A stretch of 64,000 bases of DNA from Pseudorhodoferax soli (GTDB taxonomy: Bacteria > Pseudomonadota > Gammaproteobacteria > Burkholderiales > Burkholderiaceae_C): the NCBI RefSeq assembly GCF_003337555.1, contig NZ_QPJK01000013.1, positions 124,001 to 188,000 of the forward strand. Reading direction: 5' to 3'. Within the stretch, counting starts at the first letter, position 1; every line of letters starts with the position of its first letter. The notes below the pieces were generated by a model. That model saw only the letters and a program-made list of their open reading frames with translations, did no database searches and was not told the origin of the DNA. A program made the translations under genes and the position numbers. Shown in pieces: positions 7,381-26,969 of the stretch.

Positions 7381-7403
7381 GGTGGGGTGCAGCTGGTTCA
7401 AGG

Positions 7404-9770: not shown

Positions 9771-9777
9771 CGTGCCG

Positions 9778-10551
9778 CTACTGCGCCACGAAGGCGGTGG
9801 CGGCTTCGGCGTTGTTGACGCGCGCCTGCGGGACATGGCCGGGCGGCGGTGCCTGGTCGAGCTTCCAGCGCATCTCGGCGCCCGGCAGCACATAGCCGAG
9901 CAGGCCGGGGTTGACGGTGACCACGCTGTCGCCGCGCACCCACTGCACGGCCGTGAGGCGCGCATGGGCGCGTCCGTCGTTGCGCACGAACAGGTAGTGC
10001 CCGTCCATGCCGCGCTCGGTGCGCCAGCGCAACTCGGCCCTGGCGGCCGTCGCAGGGTCGCGTGGCTTGTCGGCACGCGGCTTGGTCCAGTGGTTCTTGC
10101 CCGAGACGAACAGCGGCACCGAGTAGCGGATCTGCAGCTTGATGCCCATGGCGCTGCCTTGGCGCTGGCCATCCTCGGCGCCGTCGGCGTTCGGCAGTTC
10201 GTCCACCAGCACGCGGTACGCGAGTTCGGTGCCGTCGGGCGCAGGCCGGGTGTTCATGAGCCGCACCAGCTGGCGCTGGCCGGCCGGCACCACGGCCATG
10301 GGCGGGCTGGCGATCACGGTTTCCTGCGGCGCGTAGCCGTCGATCCGGTCGGCCTGGCTCCAGGCCAGCACCCGGATCTGCAGCGACATCGGCTGCTGGC
10401 CGCGGTTCTCCAGCCACAGGGCCGCGGCGCGCTGGTCCTCCTCGATGACCGGGTCGAGCGGCCAGATCATCAGCGAGGACTGGGCCTGTGCCTGGGCCGT
10501 GGCCAGGCAGCCCGCCAGGGCCAGCGCTTGCAGGCGGTGGGGGCGCGACAT
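9778..10551 (-). CDS. Periplasmic pilus chaperone, CsuC-like
   Basis: Protein of 257 residues starting MSRPHRLQALALAG with a signal peptide ending AQAQAQS. It has the PapD-like two-immunoglobulin layout: an N-terminal domain with LWLENRGQQPMSLQIRV and a G1-like strand near YSVPLFV, then a C-terminal domain with VRNDGRAHARLTAVQW. Chaperones of this family hold pilus subunits in the periplasm by donating a strand. It is eight bases downstream of a pilin gene and seven bases upstream of the usher. Its N-terminal arm (SLMIWPLDPVIEE) resembles that of archaic-type chaperones. Confidence 0.9.
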   Translation of the reverse strand: MSRPHRLQALALAGCLATAQAQAQSSLMIWPLDPVIEEDQRAAALWLENRGQQPMSLQIRVLAWSQADRIDGYAPQETVIASPPMAVVPAGQRQLVRLMNTRPAPDGTELAYRVLVDELPNADGAEDGQRQGSAMGIKLQIRYSVPLFVSGKNHWTKPRADKPRDPATAARAELRWRTERGMDGHYLFVRNDGRAHARLTAVQWVRGDSVVTVNPGLLGYVLPGAEMRWKLDQAPPPGHVPQARVNNAEAATAFVAQ

Positions 10552-10559
10552 CGGCTTTC

Positions 10560-11123
10560 CTACCAACTGAAGATGACCTGCAGCGTGTCGGTGTAGTTGC
10601 CCGCCGGCAAGCCGGCGCCCGGTGCGCTCGCGCGGCCGTAGACCGGCACCAGCGTGGGCCCGGCGCTGGCATCCACAGACACTCCCACGCCCGGCGCCAC
10701 GACGGCGCCGCCACCGGGCTGGGTGGTCAGCATGTAAGGAAGGTAAGAGCTGCCGTAGCGCATGCGGCGCTGGCCGCCCACGGCGTTCTGGCCGCCGTCG
10801 ATGGTCATCGTGACCGTGGCGCCCGGCGTGCACTGCACCTGCGCGGGGCTGGCCGCCATGCCGATGGCGGCGTCGTAGTTGCCCGCCTGCACGGCCGGGT
10901 GGCTGCCGAAATCGAGCTTGCCGAAGCCGATGCCGCTCGTCTGGGAGACGTTGCCCACCACCCAGCAGCCCGACGAGACGGTCGCGCTAACCAGGAAGTT
11001 GGCGGTGGTGGGCACCTTCGTGCTGGCGCGCGACGGGCCACTGCCCGTGAGGGCCAGCACTGCGCCACAACCCAGCGCGGCAAGCCGCATCGCCATCTGC
11101 ACGGAATCCATTCCTTGCAACAT
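10560..11123 (-). CDS. Spore coat U domain pilin, CsuA/CsuB-like
   Basis: One SCPU domain with signal peptide (LGCGAVLALTG) and Cys pair (SSGCWVVG, VQCTPG), ending TDTLQVIFSW. The start is uncertain: ATGs at 11123, 11111 and 11096 are in frame, none with a well-spaced ribosome site; the signal peptide is kept in all. It differs clearly from the pilins at 11187-11771 and 5662-6234, so it is probably an adaptor or minor subunit like CsuA or CsuB. It sits between the first pilin and the chaperone and is cotranscribed with them. Confidence 0.85.
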   Translation of the reverse strand: MLQGMDSVQMAMRLAALGCGAVLALTGSGPSRASTKVPTTANFLVSATVSSGCWVVGNVSQTSGIGFGKLDFGSHPAVQAGNYDAAIGMAASPAQVQCTPGATVTMTIDGGQNAVGGQRRMRYGSSYLPYMLTTQPGGGAVVAPGVGVSVDASAGPTLVPVYGRASAPGAGLPAGNYTDTLQVIFSW

Positions 11124-11186
11124 GGCCGAATTTTGAACCAATCCCCCCTAATTTCGTGCTAGGGATCGCCCGAATGTGTGAATACG

Positions 11187-11771
11187 TCACCAAGCCAGTG
11201 TGACCTGCAGCACATCGGTGTAGGTGCCGGACACGAGTGCGGCCGGGCTCGTCTTGTTGATGCGGCCATAGATCGGCAGTGGCAGGGCCACGCCAGTGCC
11301 CGGCAGCGTCACGCCGACAGCGCTGGCGCTGGTCGGGTAGGCGCTGGTCATGCCGGCGTCGCTGTAGACCTCGTAGGGCAGGTAGCTGGAGGTGCCCAGC
11401 TTCATGGCACGCGAGCCGATGCCGACCGAGCCGCCCTGGCCCGCGTTGTTGCCGCCGCTGACGGTGATGGACAGGGAGGTCACGTCGGGCGAGCACAGGA
11501 TCTGGGTGGCACCGGCGCCGCCGGCACCGCCCGAGGAGGTCGCGGCCAGGATGCCGGTGAAGGTGGCCGGCTGGGTGCCGAAGTCCAGGGTGCCGAAGTT
11601 CACGCCGGTGGCGCCGGCGCCGGGAGCGCCGGAAACGATGCAGCCGGCTTGCAGGGTCATCTGGGCGTTGAGCTGGCCGGCCAGCGAGCCGGCGGCGATC
11701 ACATTGGACGAAGCCAGCACCGCCAGGGCGGACAGGGCAGCCAGGGAGATCTTGGTGGCGGTGCGTTGCAT
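11187..11771 (-). CDS. Spore coat U domain major pilin, CsuA/B-like
   Basis: Protein of 194 residues. The ATG at 11771 follows GAGG at a normal distance; the signal peptide ends near SNVIAAG. One SCPU domain with Cys pair (AGCIVSG, ILCSPDV) and C-terminal TDVLQVTLAW. As the first gene of the cluster it occupies the position of the major pilin CsuA/B in the Acinetobacter csu operon. A close paralogue ends the cluster at 5662-6234. The upstream region 11772-12145 carries two palindromes and should hold the operon promoter. Confidence 0.85.
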   Translation of the reverse strand: MQRTATKISLAALSALAVLASSNVIAAGSLAGQLNAQMTLQAGCIVSGAPGAGATGVNFGTLDFGTQPATFTGILAATSSGGAGGAGATQILCSPDVTSLSITVSGGNNAGQGGSVGIGSRAMKLGTSSYLPYEVYSDAGMTSAYPTSASAVGVTLPGTGVALPLPIYGRINKTSPAALVSGTYTDVLQVTLAW

Positions 11772-11804
11772 GGTGAACCTCGTTGCGGTGGGTTGTGGGG
11801 GTGG

Positions 11805-11842
11805 CGGATCGCTGTGATCCGATGGGTTGAATTGTTCAACCC
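11805..11842. promoter_or_regulatory. Two adjacent palindromes upstream of the pilus operon
   Basis: CGGATC-GCTGT-GATCCG (11805-11821) is followed directly by GGGTTGAA-TTG-TTCAACCC (11824-11842), whose arms match perfectly over eight bases. They lie 34-71 bases before the first pilin start, in its promoter or leader, and could be operators or leader hairpins. The rest of the gap 11843-12145 shows only the ribosome site AAAGGAG of the gene at 12146. Confidence 0.6.
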
Positions 11843-12145
11843 GGGTGCCCTGCAACCGTGGAGCAACGGTGGCGCTTTGTGGCGCAGTACGACACAGTCG
11901 CGCCACATTTGGCCGGTCCGGCGTGCGGCCCGGCGGGTGGCCTGGGGGTCCTTCGCGCCCCCGTGCAAGGCCGCGGCGCCGTGCCAGCGCCATGCGCTGC
12001 TGGTGCCACGCTGACCGCTTGAGAGAGACCGGCGACCGCTCGCCTGCGGCTTCACGCGTGCAGCGGGCCGCACTCGCGCACTGCCGCGGGCGGGAACGCC
12101 CTTTGCCCTGGCAGCCAGGTCTTTCAATCCAAAGGAGCAACACGC

Positions 12146-12775
12146 ATGACAGGCATCATCCGCAAGACACCGCTGGCACTGCGCCTGGGCATGGGCGGCA
12201 CCGCCCTGTGCCTGGCGCTGGCGGCGGCGGCACAGACCGGCCCAGCCACACAGGGCGGCACCGCGGCCGGGCAGGGCGCCGGCAGCGAACGCGCGGGCCG
12301 TGCGGCGTCGCAGCTGTCGCGCGCCGACACCGCCTTCATGAAGCAGGCGGCCGAGAACAACCACGCCGAGATCGAGAGCAGCAAGCTGGCCATGCAGAAG
12401 GCCAGCGATCCGGCGGTCAAGGGCTTTGCCCAGCAGATGGTGGCCGACCACGGCAAGACCGGCCAGGAACTCGCCGCCCTGGCCAGTGCCAAGGGTGTGG
12501 AGCTGCCGGACGGGCCCTCGCTGATGCAGAAGGCCAAGCTCAAGCTGCTCGAGGCGGCCGACGGTGCCGACTTCGACCGCCGCTATGCCGAGACCATGGG
12601 CCTGGCCGCCCACCGCGACACCATCGCGCTGTTCCAGAAGGCGGCCAAGGAGGCGCGCGACCCCGAAGTCAAGGCCTTCGCCACCAAGACGCTTCCAGCG
12701 CTGCAGGGCCACCTGGACATGGCGCAAAAGCTGCCGGCCGCCCATGACGCCGGCAAAGGCCACGGCAAGCGTTGA
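12146..12775 (+). CDS. DUF4142 ferritin-like periplasmic protein
   Basis: Protein of 209 residues with an N-terminal signal peptide (ALCLALAAAAQTG), an Ala/Gly/Gln-rich linker, and a DUF4142 domain from about residue 55 to 195. Typical family features are seen: DTAFMKQAAENNHAEIE, VKGFAQQMVADHGKT and a closing HLDMAQKL. DUF4142 has a ferritin-like four-helix fold; its role is unproven, but it is often found among envelope and stress genes. The start is set by AAAGGAG at 12131-12137. It is transcribed divergently from the pilus operon and convergently with malQ. Confidence 0.85.
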   Translation: MTGIIRKTPLALRLGMGGTALCLALAAAAQTGPATQGGTAAGQGAGSERAGRAASQLSRADTAFMKQAAENNHAEIESSKLAMQKASDPAVKGFAQQMVADHGKTGQELAALASAKGVELPDGPSLMQKAKLKLLEAADGADFDRRYAETMGLAAHRDTIALFQKAAKEARDPEVKAFATKTLPALQGHLDMAQKLPAAHDAGKGHGKR

Positions 12776-12807
12776 GCGTGTAGAAACGGCGGCAACTTCT
12801 GCCGGCC

Positions 12808-12831
12808 GGCGCGCCCTTCAGGGGGCGCGCC
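12808..12831. terminator. GC-rich stem-loop between convergent genes
   Basis: GGCGCGCCC and GGGCGCGCC pair perfectly over nine bases around a six-base loop, between the DUF4142 stop and the malQ stop; the loop contains the malQ stop codon. No T-run follows on either strand, so termination here, if any, is not of the classic intrinsic kind. Confidence 0.4.
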
Positions 12832-14914
12832 AGCTGCGCCGGGCCAGTGCCTGGACCACCGCCTGCAGGCCAGGGTGGTCGGCCAGCGCCTCCAGCGCCG
12901 GGCCCAGCTTGCGGCGCCAGTTCGGGAACTGGTCTTCGCGCGTGCCGGGCAGGTTGACCTGCAGCGGCTGCAGCGTGGCGTCCTCCAGCTGCACGCCGAG
13001 CAGCCAGCACGGCGTGCCCGCAAGGTAGGCGTGGACGGCCGCCAGCAGCGCGGTGTCCACCTGCGCCGGCGCATCGGCAGCGGCCGGCCACAGCCCGGCC
13101 TGGGCCAGCGCCTGCAGCAGGGCCTGGCGCACGGCGGCGCGCTGGCGTTGGGCGGCCGGCAGGTCCACGTGCTGCCCCAGCTGCTGTTGCAGCTGCAGGT
13201 CCAGGCCCTGCCAGAAGCCGGCCAGCGTGGGCAGGTCGTGTGTGCCGAAAGCCGCAAAGGCCTGGGCCGGGAAGCCGGCCGGCGCCGTGAAGCGGCCCTG
13301 CGCGTCCTGCGCGAACATCAGCGGCCGGTACGACAGCACGCAGCCCTGCTGCATGGCCGTCTGCATCTCGGCCGGCACCGTGCCCAGGTCTTCGCCCACC
13401 ACCAGGCAGCGCTGGCGGTGGCTCTCCAGCGCCAGCAGGCCCATCAGGTCCTCGGCGGGATAGCGCACGTAGACGCCGCCATCGGCGCCGGTCCAGAACA
13501 GCCGCATCAGCACCATCACATGGTCCAGCCGCAGCGCACCGGCGCTGCGCATGTTGGCGCGCAGCGTGTCGATGAAGGGCTGGTAGCCGGTCGCGCGCAG
13601 GGCCGGTGGGGTGGGCGGCGCCAGGCCCCAGTCCTGCCCCGAGGGCTGCAGCAGGTCTGGCGGCGCACCGATGCGCATGTCCAGTGCGTACAGCTGCGGC
13701 CGCAGCCAGGTTTCCGAGCCGCCGGGGTCCACGCCGACCGCCAGGTCGCGGTACAGGCCGATCGGCATGCCGGCGCGGCGTGCATGCGCCTGCACATCGG
13801 CCAGCTGCTGCTCGGCCAGGAACTGCAGCCACATGCGGTAGCGCACGCTGTCCGCATGCATGGCGCAGAAGGCCTGCACGGCCGCGCCCTGCGGGTCGCG
13901 GTAGTCCTCGGGCCAGTCCTGCCAGCCGCCGATGCCGCTGTGGCGCTGTGCCAGGTGCGCCTGCAGCGCCTCATAGATTGCGTGCATGCCCAGCCGCGCG
14001 CGCTGCTCCAGCAGGAAGGCACGGAAGGCGCGGCTGCCGGCCGCAGGCCAGGCGTGCTGCGCATCGACATGGCGCCAGACCACGGCCAGCAGCTCCTCCT
14101 TGGCGGCGGCCACGGCGGCGTAGTCCACGAGTTCGCCGTCGCGCAGGGCCTGCAGGCGCTGCTGGTAGGCCGCATCGTTCCAGAGCACGCGGGCCTCGGC
14201 GCAATCGCTGGCGGCCACCACGGCCTCCAGGTCCAGGTACAGCGGGTTCAGCGCCAGCCGGCTGGAGGGGCTGTAGGGGCTCGCACGCTCCGGCTGGTGC
14301 GGGAACAGCGCATGCAGCGGATTCAGCCCGATGAAGGCCGCGCCTTGGGCGGCCGCCAGGTCCACCAGCCGGCGCAGGTCGCCGAAGTCGCCGATGCCGC
14401 AGTTGTGCGCCGAGCGCAGCGCGTACAGCTGCACCGTGTAGCCCCACCAGCGCGCGCCGTGCTGCAGCGCTGCCGGTGCCCAGCAGCGCGCGGGCGCCAC
14501 GGCCACGCGGCATTGCTGGCGGCCCGCGGCCGTGCGCACGCGCAGCCGGTAGTAGCCCGGCGCCAGCGCGGCAGAGTGGGCGATGCTGGCCGTGCCAGCA
14601 GCGAAGGCCACGGCGCCGTGCGCCAGTGCCGGGGCGCCGACCAGTTCTTCGTCCTGCAGCTCCCATTGCGCGGGCGTGTCGTCGGTGGCCTGCCAGCGCA
14701 GCTGCAAGGGCTGGCCTTCGCGCAGCACGTGGCAGGCCGGCAGGCCGGCCGGCGTGCCGGGCCCGTCCGGCGCCATGCCCATGGCGGCCAGCGCACGCCG
14801 CAGCGCCGCCTCGGGCACCCGGCGCTCGCTGCCGTCGAAGGCCTCGTAGCGCTCCAGCACGCCGGCGGCGGCGGCGCAGCGGGCCCAGTCCTCGGGCGAT
14901 GCGCCGGCGCTCAC
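12818..14914 (-). CDS. malQ: 4-alpha-glucanotransferase (amylomaltase)
   Basis: Cytoplasmic GH77 enzyme of 698 residues that moves glucan segments between maltodextrins or onto glucose. GH77 marks are clear: NCGIGDFGDLRRLVDLAA, SPYSPSSRLALNPLYLDLE, the nucleophile Asp in LRLDHVM, the acid/base Glu in VVGEDLGTVP, and the third Asp in FGTHDLPTL. The start is taken as the GTG at 14914, which overlaps the stop of the treZ remnant (GTGA). In related genomes malQ sits between treZ and treY of the maltooligosyl-trehalose route; here no treY is seen and treZ is reduced, so MalQ probably serves glycogen/maltodextrin turnover alone. Confidence 0.92.
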   Translation of the reverse strand: MSAGASPEDWARCAAAAGVLERYEAFDGSERRVPEAALRRALAAMGMAPDGPGTPAGLPACHVLREGQPLQLRWQATDDTPAQWELQDEELVGAPALAHGAVAFAAGTASIAHSAALAPGYYRLRVRTAAGRQQCRVAVAPARCWAPAALQHGARWWGYTVQLYALRSAHNCGIGDFGDLRRLVDLAAAQGAAFIGLNPLHALFPHQPERASPYSPSSRLALNPLYLDLEAVVAASDCAEARVLWNDAAYQQRLQALRDGELVDYAAVAAAKEELLAVVWRHVDAQHAWPAAGSRAFRAFLLEQRARLGMHAIYEALQAHLAQRHSGIGGWQDWPEDYRDPQGAAVQAFCAMHADSVRYRMWLQFLAEQQLADVQAHARRAGMPIGLYRDLAVGVDPGGSETWLRPQLYALDMRIGAPPDLLQPSGQDWGLAPPTPPALRATGYQPFIDTLRANMRSAGALRLDHVMVLMRLFWTGADGGVYVRYPAEDLMGLLALESHRQRCLVVGEDLGTVPAEMQTAMQQGCVLSYRPLMFAQDAQGRFTAPAGFPAQAFAAFGTHDLPTLAGFWQGLDLQLQQQLGQHVDLPAAQRQRAAVRQALLQALAQAGLWPAAADAPAQVDTALLAAVHAYLAGTPCWLLGVQLEDATLQPLQVNLPGTREDQFPNWRRKLGPALEALADHPGLQAVVQALARRSWRAP

Positions 14915-15061
14915 AGCGCGGTCTCCCGGCCGATCGGCGAGCGCGCGGCCAGGCCGCGGCAGGCCGCGCCGCTGCGCGCCGCTGGCGCCCACCGCCGCAA
15001 GCCCGCGCCGCCCTCGCAGCGGACCGGAAGGCCGAAGGGCATGGGATGGCTGGCGTGCATG
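14911..15061 (-). pseudogene. treZ: Remnant of treZ (maltooligosyltrehalose trehalohydrolase)
   Basis: A 49-codon frame starting MHASHPMPFGLPV, preceded by GAGGAA at good spacing. HPMPFG followed by LRRWAPAARS matches the N-terminus of TreZ proteins (MPFGxxxx...FRLWAPAARSVEL). After about 30 residues the similarity stops, and the frame ends in an overlap with the malQ start. The catalytic GH13 domain of about 550 residues is absent, so the gene is dead. The in-frame overlap with malQ suggests an internal deletion that kept translational coupling. The family call rests on a short stretch. Confidence 0.5.
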
Positions 15062-15122: not shown

Positions 15123-16886
15123 TCATCCCGTCTCCAGGCCTTCGGCCTGCATCGCCCACAGCTGGGCGTACAGGCCGCCGGCCCCGCGCAGCTGCTGGGG
15201 CGGGCCGTCCTCGACGATGCGGCCCTCGGCCATCACGAGGATGCGGTCGAAGCCGGCCACGGTGGACAGCCGGTGCGCCACGGCCAGCACGGTGCGGCCC
15301 CGCATGAGCCGGTCCAGCGCGCGCTGGATCTCGCCTTCCGAGCGGCTGTCCAGTGCCGAGGTGGCCTCGTCCAGCAGCAGGATGGGGGCGTTCTTGAGCA
15401 TGGCCCTGGCGATGCCGATGCGCTGGCGCTGCCCGCCCGACAGCCGCGCGCCGCGCTCGCCGACCACGGTGGCATAGCCCTGGGCCAGCGCGCGGACGAA
15501 GCCGTCGCAATGCGCGTCGCGCGCCGCCTGCAGCACCTCTGCGTCCGTGGCCTGCGGCCGGCCGTAGCGCAGGTTCTCCATGACCGAGCGGTGCAGCAGG
15601 CTGACGTCCTGCGGCACCACGCCGATGGCCGCCCGCAGCGAGGCCTGCTGCACCTGCGCAATCGGCTGCCCGTCCACCAGGATGCGGCCCGCGTCCGGAT
15701 CGGCCGTGCGGGTGATCAGCCGCAGCAGCGTGGACTTGCCCGCGCCCGAAGGCCCGACGATGCCCACGCGCTGCCCGGCCGGGATGTGCAGGTCCAGGCC
15801 GCGAAACACCGCCGGCTGGCCCGGATAGGCGAAGCGCAGCGCCTCGATGCGGATCTCCCCGGGCCCGGCGGCCAGCGGCGCGGCGCCGGCGCCATCGGCC
15901 ACCTCGTGCGGCACGGCCACGGCCTGCAGCATGTCGGCGATCACGCCGAACTGCTGCGACGCATCCACCAGCGACAGCGCCAGGTCGCGCGAGCCATGCA
16001 GGATGCGGAAGGTCAGCGCGCTGACCACCACCACGTCGCCGGGCATGGCCTCGCCGGCCCGCCAGGCCTGCACCACCCAGGCCAGCATGCCGCCGGCCAT
16101 CAGCCACAGGCACAGGTCGTGCGCGGCACGCACCTTTTCCAGGTAGAGCCAGCTGCGCCGCTGCGCCTGCGCCTCCAGGCCGAAGGCCGCCTGCAGGCGG
16201 CGGTGCTCGCGTGCGCGGGCACCGAAGGCCTGCACCGTCCAGATGTTGGCCACCACGTCCACCAGTTCGCCGCCGACCTGCGCGGCCTGCTCGGCGAACC
16301 GCTGCTGCAGCGGCCGGGCGCGCCGCCCGAAGCGCGCCAGCACCACCCCCATGACGGCGACGAAGCCCGCCAGGGCCAGGGCCATGCGCACATCCACCGT
16401 CCACAGCACCACCACCGCGCCCACGAAATCCACGCAGGGCGGCAGGATCTTCCACACCAGCGTGCCGAGGATGGAGCCGGTCGCGCCCGCCGTGGCCGTG
16501 ACGCGGTTGCCCAGCGATCCGGCCATGTGCCGCGAGAAGTAGTCCTGCGAGTGGCCCGAGAGGTGGCGGAACATGTCCAGCCGCACGTCCACGCCGGTGG
16601 CCACCACCGCGTGGCAGCCGAGCCAGCCGCCGAGCCGCCAGCACAGGCTCTCGGCCGCGATCAGCACGATGAACAGGGCCAGCCAGACCCAGATCGCGCG
16701 GCTGTGCCGATCGCCCAGCGCCATCGCGTCGACGATGAGCTTCATGCCGTACTGCACGCCGACCGAGCAGGCCGCGCCGGCCACGATCAGCAGGCCCAGC
16801 GTGCCGAACAGCAGCGGGCGCCGCCGCACGTAGTGCCACAGGAAGGCCGCCGGGCGCGCCGGCAGCAGCGCCTCAGCCGCCGGCAA
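15123..16886 (-). CDS. ABC exporter, fused membrane and ATPase domains
   Basis: About 587 residues: a six-helix type I exporter membrane domain (roughly residues 15-310), then an ATPase domain with Walker A GPSGAGKST, signature LSGGQRQRIGIARAML, Walker B ILLLDEATSALD and switch His in VAHRLST. Such half-transporters act as homodimers in the inner membrane, exporting lipids, lipid-linked glycans or drugs. No ATG fits; a TTG at 16886, overlapping the glf stop by 14 bases, is the likely start. Coupling to glf suggests it flips or exports a lipid-linked, galactofuranose-containing glycan. The substrate is inferred. Confidence 0.85.
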   Translation of the reverse strand: MPAAEALLPARPAAFLWHYVRRRPLLFGTLGLLIVAGAACSVGVQYGMKLIVDAMALGDRHSRAIWVWLALFIVLIAAESLCWRLGGWLGCHAVVATGVDVRLDMFRHLSGHSQDYFSRHMAGSLGNRVTATAGATGSILGTLVWKILPPCVDFVGAVVVLWTVDVRMALALAGFVAVMGVVLARFGRRARPLQQRFAEQAAQVGGELVDVVANIWTVQAFGARAREHRRLQAAFGLEAQAQRRSWLYLEKVRAAHDLCLWLMAGGMLAWVVQAWRAGEAMPGDVVVVSALTFRILHGSRDLALSLVDASQQFGVIADMLQAVAVPHEVADGAGAAPLAAGPGEIRIEALRFAYPGQPAVFRGLDLHIPAGQRVGIVGPSGAGKSTLLRLITRTADPDAGRILVDGQPIAQVQQASLRAAIGVVPQDVSLLHRSVMENLRYGRPQATDAEVLQAARDAHCDGFVRALAQGYATVVGERGARLSGGQRQRIGIARAMLKNAPILLLDEATSALDSRSEGEIQRALDRLMRGRTVLAVAHRLSTVAGFDRILVMAEGRIVEDGPPQQLRGAGGLYAQLWAMQAEGLETG

Positions 16887-18090
16887 CGGCGGGCAGCTGC
16901 GGCGGCAGCAAGCTGGGCAGCAAGGCCTGCTGCCCGCAGGGGTCGGCCGTGCAGTCGGCGCTGCGCTGGGCTGCCTGGGCGATGCGCGCGAACAGCGCCA
17001 GGCTCTGCGCCACCACCTGGTCCATGTTGTAGTAGCGGTAGGTGCCCAGGCGGCCGGTGAAGGTGACGCCGGGCGTCTGCTCGGCCAACTGGGCATAGCG
17101 CTGGTAGAGGGCGGCGTTCTCGGGCGCGGGGATGGGGTAGTACGGGTCGCCCTTGTCGGTGGGGTACTCGTGCGTGATGCTGGTACGCGGGTGGCGCTGG
17201 CCGGTCAGGTGCTTGTACTCGGTGATGCGCGTGTAAGGCACCTCGGGCGCGGGGTAGTTCACCACCGCCACCGGCTGCAGCCATTCCTGGTCCAGCGTGC
17301 GGTGCTCGAAGCGCAGCGAACGGTAGGGCAGCGGGCCGTAGCAGCAGCCGAAGTACTCGTCGACCGGGCCGGTGTAGACCAGGTGGCGCCAGCGCACGGC
17401 GCCGCCCAGGTCGGCGTGGTCCGTGCCCGGCAGGAAGTGGATGTTCGGGTGGTCCACCATGCGCTCGAACATGCGCGTGTAGCCCTCCAGCGGCATGCAC
17501 TGGAAACGGTCCTGGAAGTAGCGGTCGTCCGCGTCGGTGCGCGTGGGCACGCGGGCGGTGACCGACTTGTCCAGCTGCGTCGCGTCGCGGCCCCACTGCT
17601 TGCGCGTGTAGCCCTCGAAGAAGGTGCGGTACAGCTCCTCGCCGACCTGGCTGACCACCACATCGCGCGCACTGCGCAGCTCGGGCAGTGCTGTAGCCCG
17701 TGCGGCAAGAAATGCCGCCACGCCGGCGCTGTCCAGCGACAGGCCGTAGAGCCGGTTGATGGTCGTGAGGTTGATCGGCATCGGCAGCTGCTGGCCCTGC
17801 ACGTCGGCCAGCACGCGGTGCTCGTAGGGCCGCCAGCGCGTGAACTGCGAGAGATAGTCCAGCACCTTCTGCGCGTTGGTGTGGAAGATGTGCGGCCCGT
17901 AGCGGTGGACCAGCACGCCGGCCGCATCGTGGAAATCGTAGGCGTTGCCACCCAGGTGGTCGCGCCGGTCGATCAGCAGCACCCGCAGGCCCAGCTGGCT
18001 GGCCAGCCGTTCGGCGAGCACGCATCCGGCGAAGCCGGCACCCACGATCAGGTAGTCGAAGGTCTCGGGGGCGTGGGACGTGGCGGGCAT
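16873..18090 (-). CDS. glf: UDP-galactopyranose mutase
   Basis: Protein of 405 residues that converts UDP-galactopyranose to UDP-galactofuranose using reduced FAD. It has the N-terminal dinucleotide motif GAGFAG at residues 17-22, then DRRDHLGGNAYD and YGPHIFHTN, and the central region FFEGYTRKQWG and YFQDRFQCMPLEGYTRMFE, all typical of bacterial Glf. It heads a minus-strand pair with the ABC exporter and is divergent from a glycosyltransferase at 18425. Galactofuranose is found in bacterial surface glycans, so this gene marks the locus as glycan biosynthesis. The ATG at 18090 is chosen because the sequence aligns with family N-termini from there. Confidence 0.93.
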   Translation of the reverse strand: MPATSHAPETFDYLIVGAGFAGCVLAERLASQLGLRVLLIDRRDHLGGNAYDFHDAAGVLVHRYGPHIFHTNAQKVLDYLSQFTRWRPYEHRVLADVQGQQLPMPINLTTINRLYGLSLDSAGVAAFLAARATALPELRSARDVVVSQVGEELYRTFFEGYTRKQWGRDATQLDKSVTARVPTRTDADDRYFQDRFQCMPLEGYTRMFERMVDHPNIHFLPGTDHADLGGAVRWRHLVYTGPVDEYFGCCYGPLPYRSLRFEHRTLDQEWLQPVAVVNYPAPEVPYTRITEYKHLTGQRHPRTSITHEYPTDKGDPYYPIPAPENAALYQRYAQLAEQTPGVTFTGRLGTYRYYNMDQVVAQSLALFARIAQAAQRSADCTADPCGQQALLPSLLPPQLPAVAGG

Positions 18091-18424: not shown

Positions 18425-19561
18425 GTGCTCCCCTTGCTCGTCTTCTCGCACCTGCGCTGGCAGTTCGTCTACCAGCGGCCGCAGCACCTGCTGTCTCGGC
18501 TGGCCGCGCGCCGGCCGGTGCTGTTCTTCGAGGAGCCCGTCACCGGGGCCGAGCGGCCCTGGCTCGCGCATGCGCAGACGCCCGAGGGCGTGACGGTGTT
18601 GCGCCCGCACGTGTGCGGCCAGGCGCCCGGCTTCGACGACGCGCACCTGCAAGTCCTGCGGCAAATGGTGCAGGAGGCCGTGCAGGACCATGCGCTGCGC
18701 ACGCACCTGCTGTGGTTCTACACGCCCATGGCGCTGGGGCTGGCCGCCGACCTGCGGCCGCGCGGCGTGGTGTACGACTGCATGGACGAGCTGTCGGCCT
18801 TCGACGGGGCGCCGCCGCAGATGCTGGAGCGCGAGAGCGCCCTGCTGCAGGTGGCCGATGTGGTGCTGACCGGCGGGCGGAGCCTGTACGAGGCCAAGCG
18901 CGAGCGCCATGCCGAGGTGCATTGCCTGCCCAGCAGCGTGGACGCCGCGCACTTCGCGCAGCAACCGCCGGAGCATCCCAGCCAGGCGGCCCTGCCGCAT
19001 CCGCGCCTGGGCTACTACGGCGTGATCGACGAGCGGCTGGACCTGGGCCTGGTCGCCGCACTGGCCGATGCCCATGCCGACTGGCAGATCGTGATGGTCG
19101 GCCCGGTGGTCAAGATCGACGCGGCCACGCTGCCGCGCCGGCCCAACCTGCACTGGCTGGGCGCACGCAGCTATGCCGAGTTGCCGGCGCACCTGGTCGG
19201 CTGGGACGTGGCGCTGCTGCCGTTCGCGCTCAATGCCTCCACCCGTTTCATCAGCCCGACCAAGACGTTCGAGTACCTCGCGGCGGGGCGGCCCTGCGTC
19301 AGCACGCGCATCCGGGACGTGGCCCGCGCCTATGGCCCCGAGGTGGCCATCGCCGACGGGCCGGCGGCCTTCGTCGCGGCGTGCGAGCGCATCCTCGCCT
19401 GGTCGGCGGCCGAGCGCGCGGCCTTCGCCGCGGCCGCCCGCGCCCGGGTGGCCAGCACCTCGTGGGACCGCCAGGTCGAGCGCATCGAGGCCTTGCTGGC
19501 GCGCTTCGAGCCGCAGGAAGGCCTGGAGCAGGTCGATGCGTCGCCCGCGCTCACGTCCTGA
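18425..19561 (+). CDS. GT-B family glycosyltransferase
   Basis: Protein of 378 residues from a GTG preceded by AAGGA. The N-terminus (LLVFSHLRWQFVYQRPQHLL) and the C-terminal nucleotide-sugar region (HWLGARSYAELPAHL, then ISPTKTFEYLAAGRP) are typical of GT4-like enzymes that act on surface glycans. There is no membrane segment. The C-terminal half of the fusion protein at 20415-22790 is a clear paralogue (both have RPNLHWLGA preceded by WQIVxxGPV). Given its place opposite glf, a galactofuranosyl or similar transfer is plausible, but donor and acceptor are not shown. Confidence 0.85.
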   Translation: MLPLLVFSHLRWQFVYQRPQHLLSRLAARRPVLFFEEPVTGAERPWLAHAQTPEGVTVLRPHVCGQAPGFDDAHLQVLRQMVQEAVQDHALRTHLLWFYTPMALGLAADLRPRGVVYDCMDELSAFDGAPPQMLERESALLQVADVVLTGGRSLYEAKRERHAEVHCLPSSVDAAHFAQQPPEHPSQAALPHPRLGYYGVIDERLDLGLVAALADAHADWQIVMVGPVVKIDAATLPRRPNLHWLGARSYAELPAHLVGWDVALLPFALNASTRFISPTKTFEYLAAGRPCVSTRIRDVARAYGPEVAIADGPAAFVAACERILAWSAAERAAFAAAARARVASTSWDRQVERIEALLARFEPQEGLEQVDASPALTS

Positions 19562-19577: not shown

Positions 19578-20402
19578 ATGGATGCACGCCCTTCCCAGGC
19601 CCAGGTGCTGCAGGAACTGCAGGTCCTGCGCGACTTCGACCCCGGCCCGGAGCTCGAGCGCCGCGTGGCCTTCCTCGCCGAGGACCTGCGCGCCAGCGGC
19701 CGGCGCGCGCTGGTGCTGGGCATCAGCGGCGGTGTCGATTCGCTGGTGGCCGGCGCCATGGCGCAGCGCGCCGTCTCGCGGCTGCGCGCGGCCGGCACGC
19801 GCGCGGAGTTCGTCGCCATGCGCCTGCCCTACGGACGGCAGCATGACGCGGCCGAGGCGGCACGCTGCATCGCCTTCATCGCGCCCGACCGCGTGCACGA
19901 GGTGGACGTGCAATGCACGGTGGACGCACTGCGCGCTGCGCTGCTGGCGGCCGGCGTGGACCTGGGCGATGCCGGCACGGCGGACTTCCTGGTCGGCAAC
20001 ATCAAGGCCCGCGCGCGCATGGTGGCGCAGTACGCCGCGGCCGGCGCATGCGACGGGCTGGTCATCGGCACCGACCACGCGGCCGAGGCCTTGATGGGCT
20101 TCTTCACCAAGCACGGCGACGGCGCGGCCGACGTCCTGCCGCTGGCCGGGCTCTCCAAGCGCCGCGTGCGTGCGCTGGGCCTGGCGCTGGGTGCGCCGGC
20201 AGAGCTGGTCATGAAGGTGCCCACGGCCGACCTGGAAAGCCTGGCGCCGCTCAAGCCGGACGAGCAGGCCTTCGGTGTCTCCTACGACACCATCGACGAC
20301 TACCTCGAAGGGCTGCCCATCGATCCTGCGGCCGAGCGGCGCATCGTCGCGCAGTACCTGGCGACGGCGCACAAGCGGGCGCCGGCGCGCCGGCCGGCGT
20401 AG
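19578..20402 (+). CDS. nadE: NH3-dependent NAD+ synthetase
   Basis: Protein of 274 residues that amidates nicotinic acid adenine dinucleotide to NAD+. The ATP-pyrophosphatase P-loop SGGVDS lies at residues 50-55; GTDHAAEALMGFFTKHGDG and DVLPLAGLSKRRVRAL are classic NadE motifs. The length fits the short, ammonia-dependent form; there is no nitrilase (glutaminase) domain. It follows the glycosyltransferase by 16 bases and precedes the glycosidase-transferase fusion by 12, so it belongs to that operon. That is an odd place for NAD synthesis, and it may be a second NadE of the genome. Confidence 0.9.
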   Translation: MDARPSQAQVLQELQVLRDFDPGPELERRVAFLAEDLRASGRRALVLGISGGVDSLVAGAMAQRAVSRLRAAGTRAEFVAMRLPYGRQHDAAEAARCIAFIAPDRVHEVDVQCTVDALRAALLAAGVDLGDAGTADFLVGNIKARARMVAQYAAAGACDGLVIGTDHAAEALMGFFTKHGDGAADVLPLAGLSKRRVRALGLALGAPAELVMKVPTADLESLAPLKPDEQAFGVSYDTIDDYLEGLPIDPAAERRIVAQYLATAHKRAPARRPA

Positions 20403-20414
20403 CGGGGCGCCCGC

Positions 20415-22790
20415 ATGCAGGAGACCTGGGGCAGGGAGGCTGCCGGCGGAAGCTTCCCACAGTGCGGGCCGTGGCAGCCGGTGGCGCTGCGCTCGTTCTG
20501 GATGGGCGGCTTCGAGGGGGCCGACCACCTGGACCCGCAGAACCGCCCGCTCGACATGGCCCGCGCGCACGGCCACCTGGCGCATCTGGAAGAAGACTAT
20601 GCCCGCGCCGCTGCGGCCGGCCTGCGCACCGTGCGCGAGAGCATCGGCTGGCGCCTGAGCGAGCCGCGGCCCGGCGTGTTCGATCTGGCACGCCCGCTGC
20701 AGATGGCGCGTTGCGCCCGCCGCCATGGCCTGCAGATCCTGTGGACCGTGATGCACTACGGCACGCCGCCCGACGTGGACCTGCGCGACGACGCACTGAT
20801 CGACCGCTTTGCCGCCTTCGCCGCGGCGGTGGCGCGCGCGCTGGGCGGGCAGGGCGAGGAGCCGCCCGTCTACACCCTGGTCAACGAGATCAGCTTCCTG
20901 GCCTGGGCCGCGGCGCACACCAACATGCTCGGGGGCTACCGGGGCGGCGACGCGCGCGAGCCCGGCGGCGGCGCCAGCGGCTACGAGATCAAGCGCCGCC
21001 TGGTGCGCGCCACGCTCGCGGCCACCGAGGCCGTGCGCCGCATCGATCCGCAGGCGCGCTTCCTGCAGATCGAGCCGCTGGTGCATGTGGTGGCGCCGCA
21101 TGGCCGGCCCGAGCTGGCGCCGCAGGCCGCGCTGGTGGCAGGCTACCAGTGGCAGGCCTGGGACCTGCTGTCCGGCCGCGCCGAACCAGGCCTGGGCGGT
21201 GGTCCCGAGATGCTGGACCTGCTGGGCGCCAACCACTACCACAGCGGCCAGTGGGAGGTGGAGACCGAGCAGCGGCTGTGGTGGCATGCGCGCGACCCGC
21301 GCCGCCGCGGCCTGGATGCACTGCTGCACGACGCCTGGCAGCGCTACGGCCGGCCACTGCTGGTGACCGAGACCAGCCACGTGGGCGCAGGCCGCGCCGC
21401 CTGGCTCAGCGACGTGGCCTGCCAGGCGCTGCACGCCCGCACCGCCGGCGTGCCGCTGCTGGGCCTGTGCCTGTACCCGCTGGTCGATCGGCCGGACTGG
21501 AACGATGCGCGCGCCTGGCACCACAGCGGCCTGTGGGACGTGGCGCAGCCGCCGCAGGCGCACCAGCCGTTCGAGCGTCTGCTGCACCGCCCGTATGCGC
21601 GCGCGCTGGCGCTGTGGCAGCAGCGCCTGCCGGCGCCGGCCGCCGTGCCCGGGCGGCCGACGCTGGCCGTGTTCTCGCACCGCCCCTGGGACCTGCTGCA
21701 GCACCGCACGCTGCACCTCATGACGGAGCTGGCGGCCGACCACCGCATCCTGTTCATCGACCCGCCCGTGCACGCCGAAGGGCCGGCGCGGCTGCTGTGC
21801 AGCTGCCCCTGGCCGGGCGTGCAGGTGCTGCAGCCGCTCGTGCCCGGCAGCACCGGAAGCTTCGACGGCGCACCGCCGCACGCCATGGCCGCGCTGCTGG
21901 CCAGGACGCTGGGGCCCGATGCGCTGGCCTGGGCCTGCACGCCCCTGGCCCTGCCGCTGCTGCGCGCCCTGCGGCTGCGCCCGGCCGTCTACGACTGCGC
22001 CGAGGGCCCGCCCCTGGGCGCCGCTGCGCCGCGCTGGCGCTTGCTGCAGGCGCGGCTGCTGCGCGAGGCAGCGCTGGTCTGCGCGGCCGGCCCGGCGCTG
22101 GCGCGTGCACTGGCGCCGCATGGCCGGCGCGTGGACCACCTGTTCCAGGCCGTGGATGCCGCGCACTTCGCCCCGGCGGCAGTGGCGCCCGGCGCCAGCG
22201 AGGCGCAGGAGGCGGCGCGCCTGTTGGGCGGGCTTTCCGGCCCGCGCATCGGCCATGTCGGGCGCATCGGCACGCACGTGGACCTGGCGCTGCTGGCCGC
22301 CATCGCGGACGCGCGGCCGCACTGGCAGATCGTGCTGATCGGTCCGGTGGCGCTGGCGGACGGCACGCCGCTGCCGCAACGGCCCAACCTGCACTGGCTG
22401 GGGGCGCAGCCCTACAGCCTGCTGCCGGCCCTGCTGGCGCGCCTCGACGTGGGCCTGCTCGCCTGGCGCCGCGATGCGCACACCGTGCTGGCGCATCCGC
22501 CGCAGCTGCTGGAATTCCTGGCCGCGGGCAAGCCGCTGGTCAGCGTGCCCTTGCCCGATGTGCAGGCGCTCTACGCCGGCATGGTGGACACCGCCGAAGA
22601 TGCTGCCGGCTTCGTGCGCGCCTGCGAGGCGGCGTTGCAGCGCTCGGGCGCATGCGAGCCGCACGCGCGGGCGCGCATCCAGGCCATGCTGGCGGGCTGC
22701 AGCTGGGAAGGCCGCGCGCAGGCTGTGCGCGCTCTGCTGCGGGGCCTGCCGGCGACGCGGACGCCGCAGCCCGCGGCGGACCTGGCTTAG
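20415..22790 (+). CDS. GH1-like glycosidase fused to GT4-like glycosyltransferase
   Basis: A single 791-residue frame with two enzyme domains. Residues about 25-405 resemble family 1 beta-glycosidases: SFWMGGFEGADH, ESIGWRLSEPRPGVFD, acid/base Glu158 in TLVNEIS and nucleophile Glu319 in LLVTETS. Residues about 415-780 are a GT-B glycosyltransferase (LAVFSHRPWDLLQHRTLHL; RPNLHWLGAQPYSLLPALL), paralogous to the enzyme at 18425. No signal peptide or membrane helix, so it should act in the cytoplasm. A joint trimming/transfer or transglycosylase-plus-transferase role in glycan assembly is inferred from the glf neighbourhood. Both catalytic Glu residues are kept, which argues that the glycosidase half is active. 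Confidence 0.85.
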   Translation: MQETWGREAAGGSFPQCGPWQPVALRSFWMGGFEGADHLDPQNRPLDMARAHGHLAHLEEDYARAAAAGLRTVRESIGWRLSEPRPGVFDLARPLQMARCARRHGLQILWTVMHYGTPPDVDLRDDALIDRFAAFAAAVARALGGQGEEPPVYTLVNEISFLAWAAAHTNMLGGYRGGDAREPGGGASGYEIKRRLVRATLAATEAVRRIDPQARFLQIEPLVHVVAPHGRPELAPQAALVAGYQWQAWDLLSGRAEPGLGGGPEMLDLLGANHYHSGQWEVETEQRLWWHARDPRRRGLDALLHDAWQRYGRPLLVTETSHVGAGRAAWLSDVACQALHARTAGVPLLGLCLYPLVDRPDWNDARAWHHSGLWDVAQPPQAHQPFERLLHRPYARALALWQQRLPAPAAVPGRPTLAVFSHRPWDLLQHRTLHLMTELAADHRILFIDPPVHAEGPARLLCSCPWPGVQVLQPLVPGSTGSFDGAPPHAMAALLARTLGPDALAWACTPLALPLLRALRLRPAVYDCAEGPPLGAAAPRWRLLQARLLREAALVCAAGPALARALAPHGRRVDHLFQAVDAAHFAPAAVAPGASEAQEAARLLGGLSGPRIGHVGRIGTHVDLALLAAIADARPHWQIVLIGPVALADGTPLPQRPNLHWLGAQPYSLLPALLARLDVGLLAWRRDAHTVLAHPPQLLEFLAAGKPLVSVPLPDVQALYAGMVDTAEDAAGFVRACEAALQRSGACEPHARARIQAMLAGCSWEGRAQAVRALLRGLPATRTPQPAADLA

Positions 22791-23362
22791 GGCGCGCTGT
22801 TGCCGCCGCCGTCGATCTGGCGTTCGGCCTGCAGCCAGTCGTCGACCTCGCGGCCGGGCGCAAAGCCGCGTTCAGCCGCCAGCGCGTAGGCGGCCGCGCG
22901 AACCCGTTCCTCGCGGCCGTCGGCCTGGCCGTCGGAGGCGCCTGCGCCGTCCCCGGTCTGGCCCTGCGCGGCCTCGTGCTCGTGCAGGCTGGGCGCCACA
23001 TTGGGGCCATCCGGCAGCGTCGCCGGGGCGTCCTGCAGGTCGGCAGGTGTGGGAGAGGGGTTGGATGTCGGCATGGCGTCTCCGTGTGGTTCGTTGGCTG
23101 GCAGGGCGGTGGGGCTGCGGCGGGGCTGGCCGCGCGCGGCGTCGTCGCGCGAGGGGCCGCTCAGCGCTTCGCGCTGCATGCGCTCGTGCTGGGCTGCGGG
23201 GGCGCCGCGCTCGCCCGCCGGGTACTCGTAGGCGGTGGTCGGCGCGTCGGCAGGTGCACGGCGCGCCGGCTGCCCTGCGCCTGGCGCGGGCGCCGGTGTC
23301 AGATCGCCTGGCCCGAGAGGCTGTGGCGCATGGCTGGGCTGCGGCTTGCTTGGCTTTTTCAT
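22787..23362 (-). CDS. DUF2934 protein with long disordered N-terminus
   Basis: Protein of 191 residues. The first 145 are Pro/Ala/Gly/Asp-rich and probably disordered. The last 40 (RAAAYALAAERGFAPGREVDDWLQAE) are a DUF2934 domain, a short helical unit common in stress-related clusters of Burkholderiales and rhizobia; its function is unknown. The stop overlaps the stop of the fusion gene on the other strand by four bases. AGGAC lies upstream of the ATG at 23362. Confidence 0.75.
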   Translation of the reverse strand: MKKPSKPQPSHAPQPLGPGDLTPAPAPGAGQPARRAPADAPTTAYEYPAGERGAPAAQHERMQREALSGPSRDDAARGQPRRSPTALPANEPHGDAMPTSNPSPTPADLQDAPATLPDGPNVAPSLHEHEAAQGQTGDGAGASDGQADGREERVRAAAYALAAERGFAPGREVDDWLQAERQIDGGGNSAP

Positions 23363-23506: not shown

Positions 23507-24394
23507 TCAGCCGGAGAGTTCGCGCAGGGCGCCCGGCAGCGCATCGCAGATCTCGCTGGCCAGGTAGCCCAGCGTGCCGTGCCGCGCGGCCAGGTGGGTC
23601 CCGGCCCGCGCGTGCGCCGCCACGGCCCAGGCCGCCGCCTGCTCGGGCGATGCGCCCTGTGCCGCCAGCCCGGCCAATGCCCCCGCGAGCACGTCGCCCG
23701 AACCCGAGGTGGCCAGGCCCGGCACGCGGCACTGGTGCCGCCAGGCGCGCCCGTCGGCGGCCGCAATGCAGGTCGTCGATCCCTTGAGCACGACGAGTGC
23801 GCCCCAGCGGCGGGCGCCAGCGTCGGCATGCCGGGCCGGGTCGGCCGCGATGGTCTCCTTGTCGATGCCGGTCAGGCCGGCCATCTCGCCCGCATGGGGG
23901 GTCAGCACGATGGGTTGGCTGAAACCGCGGCCGCTGCCCACCGCTTCCATCGCCAGCGCGTCCAGCACCACGACCGCCTGCGGAACATGCGCGAGCGCTG
24001 CAGCGAGGAAGTCCGGCACGCTGGCGGCATCCAGCATGCCGGGCCCGACCAGCACGGCGGACGTGCGCTGCGCCACGGCTTCGAGCAGCTCGGCGCCATG
24101 CGGTGCGAGACCGCCTGCGTCGGTTTCGGGCAACGCGACCACACGCGCCTCAGGCAACCGGAGTGCGATGCCCTGGGAGACGCTCTGCGGCACGGCCATC
24201 GACAACTTGCCGGCACCGGCGCGCAGCGCTGCCCGCGCCGCCAGCAGGGCCGCGCCCGGCATCTCGCGGCTGCCGGCGATCACCAGCACTTGCCCGCGCG
24301 ACTCCTTGTCGCCCTCGGCGTCAGGGGACGGCAGCGCCCAGCCGCGCAGCAGCTCTGCACTGAGATCGACGGGCTCTGGCGGCTGCCGGCTCAT
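23507..24394 (-). CDS. nnrD: ADP-dependent NAD(P)H-hydrate dehydratase
   Basis: Protein of 295 residues of the ribokinase-like YjeF C-terminal family, which dehydrates damaged S-NAD(P)HX back to NAD(P)H with ADP. Motifs: GQVLVIAGSREMPGAALLAA, LVGPGML, IVLTPHAGEMAGL and the nucleotide/catalytic loop GLATSGSGDVLAGALAG. The N-terminal epimerase domain (NnrE) found in E. coli YjeF is absent, so this is a stand-alone dehydratase. The start overlaps the stop of the upstream phosphatase-like gene (ATGA), meaning the two are coupled. Confidence 0.9.
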   Translation of the reverse strand: MSRQPPEPVDLSAELLRGWALPSPDAEGDKESRGQVLVIAGSREMPGAALLAARAALRAGAGKLSMAVPQSVSQGIALRLPEARVVALPETDAGGLAPHGAELLEAVAQRTSAVLVGPGMLDAASVPDFLAAALAHVPQAVVVLDALAMEAVGSGRGFSQPIVLTPHAGEMAGLTGIDKETIAADPARHADAGARRWGALVVLKGSTTCIAAADGRAWRHQCRVPGLATSGSGDVLAGALAGLAAQGASPEQAAAWAVAAHARAGTHLAARHGTLGYLASEICDALPGALRELSG

Positions 24395-25410: not shown

Positions 25411-25923
25411 ATGACCACCCGAGCCGAAGAGAACCTGATGGACTGGTTGCGCGATGCGCACGCGATGGAAGAGCAGGCGGAGAAGATGCTGGCCGCCACG
25501 GCCGCCAGGCTGGAGAACTACCCGGTGCTGAAGCAGCGCATCGAGCAGCACCTGGAAGAGACGCGCCGCCAGGCGACGCTGGTGCGTGGCTGCATCGAAC
25601 GGCGCGGCGGCGACACCTCCGCAGTGAAGGACTTGACCGGCCGCATCGTCGCCATGGCCCAGGGCATGAGCGGCATGTTCGTCACCGACGAGGTGGTCAA
25701 GGCCAGCATGAGCAGCTACGCGTTCGAGCACATGGAGATCGCCAGCTACCGCATCCTGGCGGCCGCTGCGGCCGTCTGCAACGATGCCGAAACGCAGCGC
25801 GTGTGCGAGCAGATCCTGCAGGAAGAGGTGGCCATGGCGGACTGGCTCGCCGCGCAGATGCCGGAGATCACCCGCGAGTTCCTGCTGCGCGACGAGACGC
25901 CCAACGTGACCGCGAAGCACTGA
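25411..25923 (+). CDS. DUF892 ferritin-like protein (YciE/YciF family)
   Basis: Protein of 170 residues with the DUF892 layout of paired helices: ENLMDWLRDAHAMEEQAEKML, HLEETRRQATLVRGCIERRG, then YAFEHMEIASYRILAAAA and EEVAMADWL. Conserved Glu and His residues match the putative di-metal site of the family. Such proteins are induced by osmotic, oxidative or stationary-phase stress in enterics; the exact role is open. GAAGGA lies before the ATG. It is flanked by other stress genes, including the manganese catalase on the opposite strand. Confidence 0.85.
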   Translation: MTTRAEENLMDWLRDAHAMEEQAEKMLAATAARLENYPVLKQRIEQHLEETRRQATLVRGCIERRGGDTSAVKDLTGRIVAMAQGMSGMFVTDEVVKASMSSYAFEHMEIASYRILAAAAAVCNDAETQRVCEQILQEEVAMADWLAAQMPEITREFLLRDETPNVTAKH

Positions 25924-26005: not shown

Positions 26006-26969
26006 TCAGAGGCCGGCGGATGCCGGGGGCGTGGGGTCGGTGCTGCCGCCGGCCGGGGTCGGCTTGACGGCCCGCGTGATGTCGTTCAGGGCCGCGTCCT
26101 CGCCCATGCCCAATTCGGCACCGGTGAGCGGGTCGCCGGTCGTCACCGACGCAGTGCGCGAGGCCATCTGCTGCACCACGGTTTCCTCCGCCGCAGCGAG
26201 CGCCACGGTGGGCAGGCCCGTGCCGCCGTCCACCGCGGCCTGCTGGTCGCGGTCCGAGACGAACTGCCAGCGCTCGCCCGCGTTCCACGGGCCGCGCACC
26301 GCGTCGCCTTCGCCCTGCGACATGTTGAAGTACACGCTGGTGAAGCGCGGATCGCCTGGCGTCTTGCCGGGCGGAAAGTTCGGCGCGATGCTGTACAGCG
26401 CCTTCTCGAAGGACTTCTGGTGTGCGATCTCGCGCGTCATCAAGAAGCCCAGCGCCTCCTTCACGCCCGGGTCGTCGGTCAGGTTGATCAGCCGCTCGTA
26501 GACGATCTTGGCGCGCGCCTCGGCGGCGATGTTGGAGCGCAGGTCGGCCGTGGGCTCGCCGATGGTGTCGATGTAGGCCGCTGTCCAGGGCACGCCGGCG
26601 GAGTTGACCAGCGGCGGGCCGCCGCCGTAGAGCACCTGGGTCACGTGGCTGTCGTTGCCCGCGCCCGAGATCGCGCGGTACAGCTCGGCCTCGGTCTCCA
26701 CGCCTTCGGCCAGCCGGCCCTTGGCGCCCTTGTTGAGCATGGCGACGATGGTGCCGATCACCTCCAGGTGGCTCAGCCTCGGTGGCGATGTCCATCAGCA
26801 TGTCCTTGCGGCCCGGGTCGTCCTCGCCCAGGGCCTGGGTGAAGTAGCGGCAGGCTGCGGCCAGCTCGCCCTGCGGGCCGCCGAACTGCTCGAGCATGAG
26901 GTTGGCGAGGCCCGGATTGGTCTCGGTCACGCGGACCGTGTACTGCAGACGTTTGTTGTGCGAAAACAT
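26006..26969 (-). pseudogene. Manganese catalase, frameshifted
   Basis: The start at 26969 follows AGGAG and reads MFSHNKRLQYTVRVTETNP, then LEQFGGPQGELAAACRYFTQ, a perfect manganese-catalase N-terminus. After MDIATE the frame shifts at about 26776-26779: the expected EELSHLEVIGTIVAMLN becomes EAEPPGGDR, and the correct reading resumes in another frame from IGTIVAMLN to the stop at 26006. Two bases are missing relative to the expected GAGGAGCTGAGC. The lost segment carries a Glu and a His of the di-manganese site, so the product should be inactive. If the shift is a sequencing error, the gene encodes a normal catalase of about 320 residues. Confidence 0.8.

Follow-up and report, generated by a model that had tools for sequence, protein, structure and literature searches.

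In Kingella kingae, the pamABCDE genes provide a UDP-galactopyranose mutase (UGM) together with galactofuranose (Galf) transferases of families GT2 and GT111, which make galactofuranose polymers (PMC12269835). The main text of that article does not contain the term "glycoside hydrolase", and a review calls the role of a galactofuranose-degrading enzyme unclear (PMC7278926). A building role is described for a plant member of glycoside hydrolase family 1 (GH1), SFR2, which builds galactolipid sugar chains by transgalactosylation (PMC4011751, PMC8065580).

Here we describe a locus in which a GH1-like glycosidase accompanies Galf genes. The window, i.e. the whole stretch of DNA that was analysed, comprises 64,000 nucleotides of Pseudorhodoferax soli (contig NZ_QPJK01000013.1, positions 124,001 to 188,000), from a genome of 8.16 Mb. 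The original prediction saw in one frame a glycosidase joined to a glycosyltransferase (GT), and regarded the system as one without known characterisation. This agrees with our literature search, which covered titles and the starts of abstracts, with subscription papers mostly outside its coverage: with queries that extended to GH1 enzymes in Galf loci and to GH1-RmlD or UGM fusions, it yielded no paper on the triad of glycosidase (GH), GT and UGM or its fusions.

Results

The stop-free frame at 20415-22790 (+ strand) encodes a single protein of 791 residues, which combines a GH1-like glycosidase with a decayed TuaH-like GT domain. As predicted, this is one gene: the frame is kept unsplit in two related species (G003 with the P. 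aquiterrae record L015, and G004 with L029). An artefact of GC-rich sequence is ruled out by the identical frame in these other species. The GH domains of the same-genus genome G003 and of the P. aquiterrae record (L015) are at least 98.5% alike.

Upstream on the + strand lie a separate TuaH-like GT with intact motifs, a candidate galactofuranosyltransferase (18425-19561), and NadE, an NAD+ synthase (19578-20402). The spacing is 16 bases from GT to NadE and 12 bases from NadE to the fusion, and the free GT terminates 0.85 kb upstream of the fusion start. Oriented opposite to these three genes, on the - strand, are an MsbA-like ABC exporter (15123-16886; ABC_membrane plus ABC_tran) and glf, which encodes UGM (16873-18090; TIGR00031 379 bits, cut-off 303.75). 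At E up to 1e-30 the source genome has no second TIGR00031 match. The fusion had been grouped with glf, the exporter and NadE. The Galf genes do recur with the GH elsewhere, but among the loci fetched NadE was found at such a position only in the genus of the window, and it probably stands outside the triad. An exporter homologue adjoins other GH/GT/UGM operons, though near some loci only. In genome G002, also of the genus Pseudorhodoferax, neither the fusion nor bacterial-type UGM was matched.

Further away, malQ (4-alpha-glucanotransferase, GH77; 12818-14992) directly adjoins the exporter, and a cluster of the chaperone-usher type occupies 5662-11771, with an outer-membrane usher at 7407-9770 and a spore coat U protein at 11190-11771. 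The window also encodes a DUF4142 protein (12146-12775), a DUF2934 protein (22787-23362), an NAD(P)HX dehydratase (23507-24394), a DUF892 protein (25411-25923) and a Mn-catalase (26006-26761). In Rhizobium leguminosarum WSM1325 the triad has genes annotated as DUF892, ferritin-like and DUF4142 at its flanks, and in Mesorhizobium ciceri a Mn-catalase stands beside it. As a yardstick, 13 proteins from the window and the loci were searched with phmmer at 43 loci of at least 9 kb. The DUF892, Mn-catalase and DUF4142 proteins of the window matched at 0/43 and DUF2934 at 2/43. Because such stress-type genes are almost nowhere in this yardstick, a stress-related use is a hint at most. The paralogue locus L004 (G000:C14:50001-69000) carries at 6939-13457 a NodU-like carbamoyltransferase, an amidohydrolase and an EpsE/stp2-like GT; relatives of these genes were found at 5/43, 12/43 and 12/43 loci, respectively, L004 included.

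Fold comparison places a GH1-type (beta/alpha)8 barrel in the N-terminal half of the fusion (residues 20-405, 20472-21629, + strand). The prediction of a GH1 active site with both catalytic glutamates was borne out. Glu158 (20886-20888), the acid/base candidate, and Glu319 (21369-21371), the nucleophile candidate, both on the + strand, align with the NEP and ENG positions of 6z1h. Together with R74, W79, H114, N157, N273, Y275 and W330, they are invariant in all 31 aligned GH domains, and the same site residues are kept in 7/7 distant ones. The GH half of the window protein keeps 65 of the 66 near-invariant columns. The fusion protein has no match to Pfam PF00232, which matches 19 of the 31 domains at E up to 0.05 (best 7.5e-14). 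The alignment of 31 domains (A1) omits the near-identical loci L001, L003, L004, L006, L012, L013, L015 and L029, as well as L038, whose GH falls in two frames, the partial L045, the GH1-RmlD proteins and all loci that lack a GH.

In GH1 enzymes, whose substrates are beta-pyranosides, a Glu-Trp pair reads O4 and O6 of the pyranose. The window protein keeps the tryptophan (Trp362), next to which D361 stands at the position of the sugar-binding glutamate of GH1. Relatives show D, E, G, L or N here, and this variability suggests that the substrate may differ between lineages.

Besides its fused forms, the GH domain is also free-standing, e.g. in L037, L040 and L043. A quick tree groups the GH of the window with those of L005 and L002, followed by the Rhizobacter type (support only 87). 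Searches with the Azospirillum GH gave matches in 106 plasmid records at E<=1e-15, including Sinorhizobium, Rhizobium, Pantoea and Deinococcus. In Deinococcus radiodurans (L093, 6932-9271) a protein that carries the annotation acyl-CoA dehydrogenase family and adjoins a PIG-L deacetylase has the GH as its N-terminal half. At L038 (5986-7126) the GH region is split over two frames, and at L070 a spacing of 16 bases separates the GH from a gene that adjoins a large protein, presumably maltooligosyl-trehalose synthase-like. The GH domains are apparently an undescribed set across several bacterial phyla, accompanying the galactofuranose machinery.

The two GT domains of the locus differ strongly in conservation. 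In the fused domain (residues 414-776, 21654-22742, + strand) the family motifs DCMDEL, GVIDER, GPVxK and SPTKTxEY are absent; DCMDEL has become DCAEGP, GVIDERLD has become GRIGTHVD and SPTKTxEY has become HPPQLLEF. Measured against the 98 columns that are at least 95% identical among 23 intact-type GTs, it keeps 55 near-invariant positions (21 of the 47 polar ones), compared with 66 in the paralogue L002, 53 in L005 and 54 in L015. Intact-type GTs kept about 85 to 100% in a leave-one-out comparison, the free GT at 18425 keeping 98/101. Both GT domains score far below the 550-bit cut-off of NF047676 (TuaH), with 66.4 bits for the fusion and 79.5 bits for 18425. Motif loss and the 55/98 positions led us to reject a plain active paralogue. 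Judging from these residues, the fused domain is a probable pseudo-glycosyltransferase and the active GT is likely the separate gene at 18425.

Selection has nevertheless acted on the decayed half. Within the genus, dN/dS is about 0.25 in both halves of the fusion, versus about 0.15 in the free GT, which indicates that selection, perhaps on structure, continues to act on the decayed half. As its value resembles that of the GH half, it may still have some undetected function. In the GT tree, 18425 groups with the GTs of GH-GT fusions from Comamonadaceae and Xylophilus (98/93), and the fused GT falls in a separate long-branched group with L002, L005 and L015 (99/100). Taken with the GH tree, these placements suggest that the window combines the fusion of one lineage with the free GT of another.

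Decayed or remnant GT parts after the GH were also found in L025, L046, L031, L033, L034, L057, L059 and L063/L081; for L031, L033 and L034, taken as one alignment, hhalign recovered the remnant with 95% probability over 318 columns. GT decay goes together with an intact-type GT elsewhere in the genome in 11 genomes (G000, G003, G004, G267, G279, G305, G307, G357, G359, G360 and G369), which include that of the window and its two relatives; "intact-type" was judged here by E-value and by identity to 18425 (55-57%; 90-91% in the genus). As each of the 11 has such a copy, the GT seems to be kept in the genome and the fused copy free to decay. This points to a recurring evolutionary pattern, in which the fused transferase degenerates in genomes that have an intact-type copy elsewhere, and the glycosidase is preserved.

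The domain order of the window was also sought in other genomes, as the prediction had invited, and GH-GT fusions were found, with an intact-type GT in L007, L008 and L016-L024. The fusions extend to the mutase. GH, GT and a UGM of the eukaryotic type are joined in L016, L017, L021 and Pantoea soli, where they form one protein of 1242 residues annotated as FAD-dependent oxidoreductase, and GT and this UGM type are joined in L027, L028 and L032. The eukaryotic-type UGM was assigned by sequence search: a profile matched the UGMs of A. fumigatus (E 1e-62) and T. cruzi (1.2e-62), followed by protoporphyrinogen oxidase (1.5e-8), and the single-sequence UGM match was 6.5e-53; an AlphaFold model built on 9 sequences (pLDDT 66.7) was left unused.

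Fusions of the GT to bacterial-type UGM occur in L078, L079, Azospirillum, Sinorhizobium meliloti and R. leguminosarum, and the gene is annotated simply as glf in Azospirillum, Sinorhizobium and Rhizobium. Among Proteobacteria, Azospirillum, L078 and L079 share a compact operon with the order GT-UGM, GH, ABC exporter. The Bacteroidota arrangement, seen in Chryseobacterium oryzae and L080, has GT, glf and GH as consecutive genes, and in M. ciceri the GH lies opposite glf and GT. The GH of S. meliloti and R. leguminosarum makes up the C-terminal region of a protein that carries the annotation glycosyltransferase family 4. Two rhizobial loci (L090, 3628-6867; L091, 3631-6870) carry between GT-UGM and the GH-bearing protein an annotated glycosyltransferase of 1079 residues, which matched none of the GH, GT or UGM models. 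Fusions of a GH1-like domain to RmlD were seen in L036 (1435-3741), L044 (9184-11463) and L046 (3720-5918). A. thermophilum has two GH1-RmlD-like frames annotated as family 1 glycosylhydrolase, one of which adjoins the GT.

Co-occurrence was examined in 200 genomes of the same family (GH by A1 at E<=1e-60, UGM by TIGR00031 at E<=1e-30, GT at E<=1e-40). The GH was present in 19 genomes from 14 genera, bacterial-type UGM in 33 and the GT in 27. All 19 GH-bearing genomes had both UGM and GT, compared with 14/181 (UGM, bacterial type only) and 8/181 (GT) of those without the GH (Fisher 5e-18 and 1e-20, respectively, in tests that ignore relatedness). With the genus of the window removed, UGM was found in 16/16 GH genomes versus 14/181 others. 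Among 150 genomes of the order, that of the window included, five others carried the GH (G049, G064, G081, G120 and G121); four of them had UGM (three bacterial, one eukaryotic type) and four the GT. In G049 the eukaryotic-type UGM is fused to the GT. Weak matches in two more, G079 and G164 (best E 1e-27 and 4e-29), resemble those given by GH1-RmlD proteins and were not counted; that of G164 lies in a frame of 797 residues, 1.2 kb from glf.

Twenty further GH genomes were reached through the loci and the query protein, and 12 of these have bacterial UGM and seven the eukaryotic type only (G350, G353, G354, G355 and G358, from the loci, plus G356 and G368). The GH genomes without a TIGR00031 match are therefore not exceptions as such, as 7/8 carry the eukaryotic type (PRK07208 in NCBIfam). 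Altogether, UGM and GT were each present in 42 of the 44 GH genomes checked, a set made up of 19/200 from the family sample, 5/149 from the order sample and the further 20, whose recovery through the query protein biases them in its favour. From the 24 genomes outside the samples four were left uncounted: G002 (no query match) and, with the GH judged from the loci, G364 and G365 (L041 and L042, GT only) and G367 (L044, GT-UGM with a GH1-RmlD protein). G364 has no UGM match of either type. The GH occurs in G120 and in G361, a Methylococcaceae assembly, without a match to GT or to either type of UGM. Two genomes of Chloroflexota, G363 and G366, have the GT next to glf, and their fetched GH loci (8 and 13 kb) contain neither. 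G021, G250 and G347, for example, have GT and UGM without the GH, hence GT and UGM can occur without it.

Discussion

The reading that we favour, and hold to be probable if only just, is a four-part module for a small Galf-containing glycoconjugate, in which the GH remodels a cytoplasmic Galf product before export. UGM (16873-18090) would provide UDP-Galf, from which the TuaH-like GT at 18425 would transfer what is presumably Galf onto an acceptor in the cytoplasm. Still on the cytoplasmic side, this product would next meet the GH1-like domain of 20415-22790, working as a retaining glycosidase or, more probably, a transglycosidase, and the MsbA-like ABC protein may export the result. The fused GT half would be a presumably inactive, folded and selected partner domain, serving as a tether or scaffold, with GT catalysis moved to the free copy.

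Computation established which domains are present, that the GH site is intact and the GT motifs are lost, and that GH, GT and UGM co-occur, share operons and are fused to one another. From this we infer what the GH acts on, in which direction it works and what kind of acceptor is used. The fusion of the GT to two kinds of UGM makes it a good candidate Galf transferase. Since the smallest operons consist of one GT, UGM, GH and an exporter, the GH likely acts on the GT product and not in nutrition. Remodelling by transglycosylation or trimming is, in our view, the most likely reading of the GH step, and the editing or transglycosylation role first proposed for the fusion is plausible.

A hydrolytic proofreading step is a possible, though not probable, explanation of the same triad. 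The GH1-like domain would remove beta-galactopyranose that the GT has misadded from the much more abundant UDP-galactopyranose (UDP-Galp), so that only galactofuranose stays. This would suit a domain with an intact GH site from a family acting on beta-pyranosides, and the co-occurrence and fusion of GH, GT and UGM fit it too; however, the residue which in GH1 reads O4 and O6 of the pyranose is not kept. The UGM equilibrium, at about 11:1 in favour of UDP-Galp (PMC7278926), makes proofreading a serious rival. Against it, some genomes carry GT and UGM without the GH.

That both halves of 20415-22790 are active, giving a bifunctional enzyme that builds and degrades, is unlikely. Of this original proposal, the glycosidase with its intact catalytic pair and its tie to the Galf genes found support, and activity of the building half did not, with its motifs lost and its near-invariant positions reduced to 55/98 (21/47 of the polar ones); moreover, an intact-type GT is available 0.85 kb upstream. 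The conservation of the GT half within the genus (dN/dS about 0.25) does speak for two active halves, as do the fusions of L007, L008 and L016-L024 with their intact-type GT half. The idea of degrading plus building therefore fits the family better than its member in the window.

We consider it very unlikely that the GH1-like domain has no catalytic role and serves the GT and the mutase as a scaffold or by binding sugar. Its fusion to several biosynthetic partners (GT and UGM, the GT4-annotated protein in rhizobia, and RmlD for a related GH1-like domain) would be in line with such a role, yet a pure scaffold would have no need of a catalytic Glu pair and surrounding site invariant in 31/31 and 7/7 domains, and the GH domain also stands alone. 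Chance or a shared ecology, whereby large genomes of soil bacteria simply carry more glycan genes, is hardly credible, for although the sampled genomes share ancestry and, in the family sample, 18 of the 19 genomes with the GH exceed 4 Mb, UGM was found in 19/19 versus 14/181 genomes within one family, and fusions or adjacency recur in Burkholderiales, alpha- and gamma-Proteobacteria and Bacteroidota.

Returning to the remodelling module, a more specific version of it is tentative and, for now, rather doubtful: that a GH1-derived retaining transglycosidase acting on cytoplasmic galactofuranosides forms, with a Galf transferase and UGM, a route not described before and spread over several phyla, by which a small galactofuranose glycoconjugate is made for export. 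If this is true, some of the building falls to a "hydrolase" fold, and in some bacteria all three activities reside in one polypeptide. Galf pathways have been described as a mutase plus a transferase, to which the GH would add a third core activity. Searches for the product would then have a defined set of enzymes to start from, and the GH-GT-UGM proteins are testable directly in one tube.

Comparison with known systems

Compared with known GH1 enzymes, such as SGR_2426 of griseus (8kap), the GH of the window is 13-25% identical among the fold alignments listed. It further differs from them in having an aspartate for the sugar-reading glutamate, in the absence of a Pfam match and of a visible signal peptide, and in sharing a polypeptide or a locus with Galf biosynthesis. 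SFR2 resembles it as a GH1 member that builds, a likeness by description only, and differs in being an enzyme of the plant chloroplast envelope; we know of no UGM or GT partner of SFR2.

The GH1-RmlD proteins of L036, L044 and L046 likewise fuse a related GH1-like domain to a nucleotide-sugar enzyme, and they adjoin the GH of the triad (L036 and L046) or the GT-UGM protein (L044). They differ from the triad GH in forming a separate deep branch and in having an RmlD-like partner instead of GT or UGM. For both GT domains of the window the best NCBIfam match is TuaH, the teichuronic acid GT (NF047676). Unlike TuaH, they fall far under its cut-off, motifs are lost from the fused copy, and their partner is UGM and not the teichuronic acid genes. 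The K. kingae system shares with the window a UGM that works alongside GTs, and the difference lies in the transferases, which belong there to GT2 and GT111.
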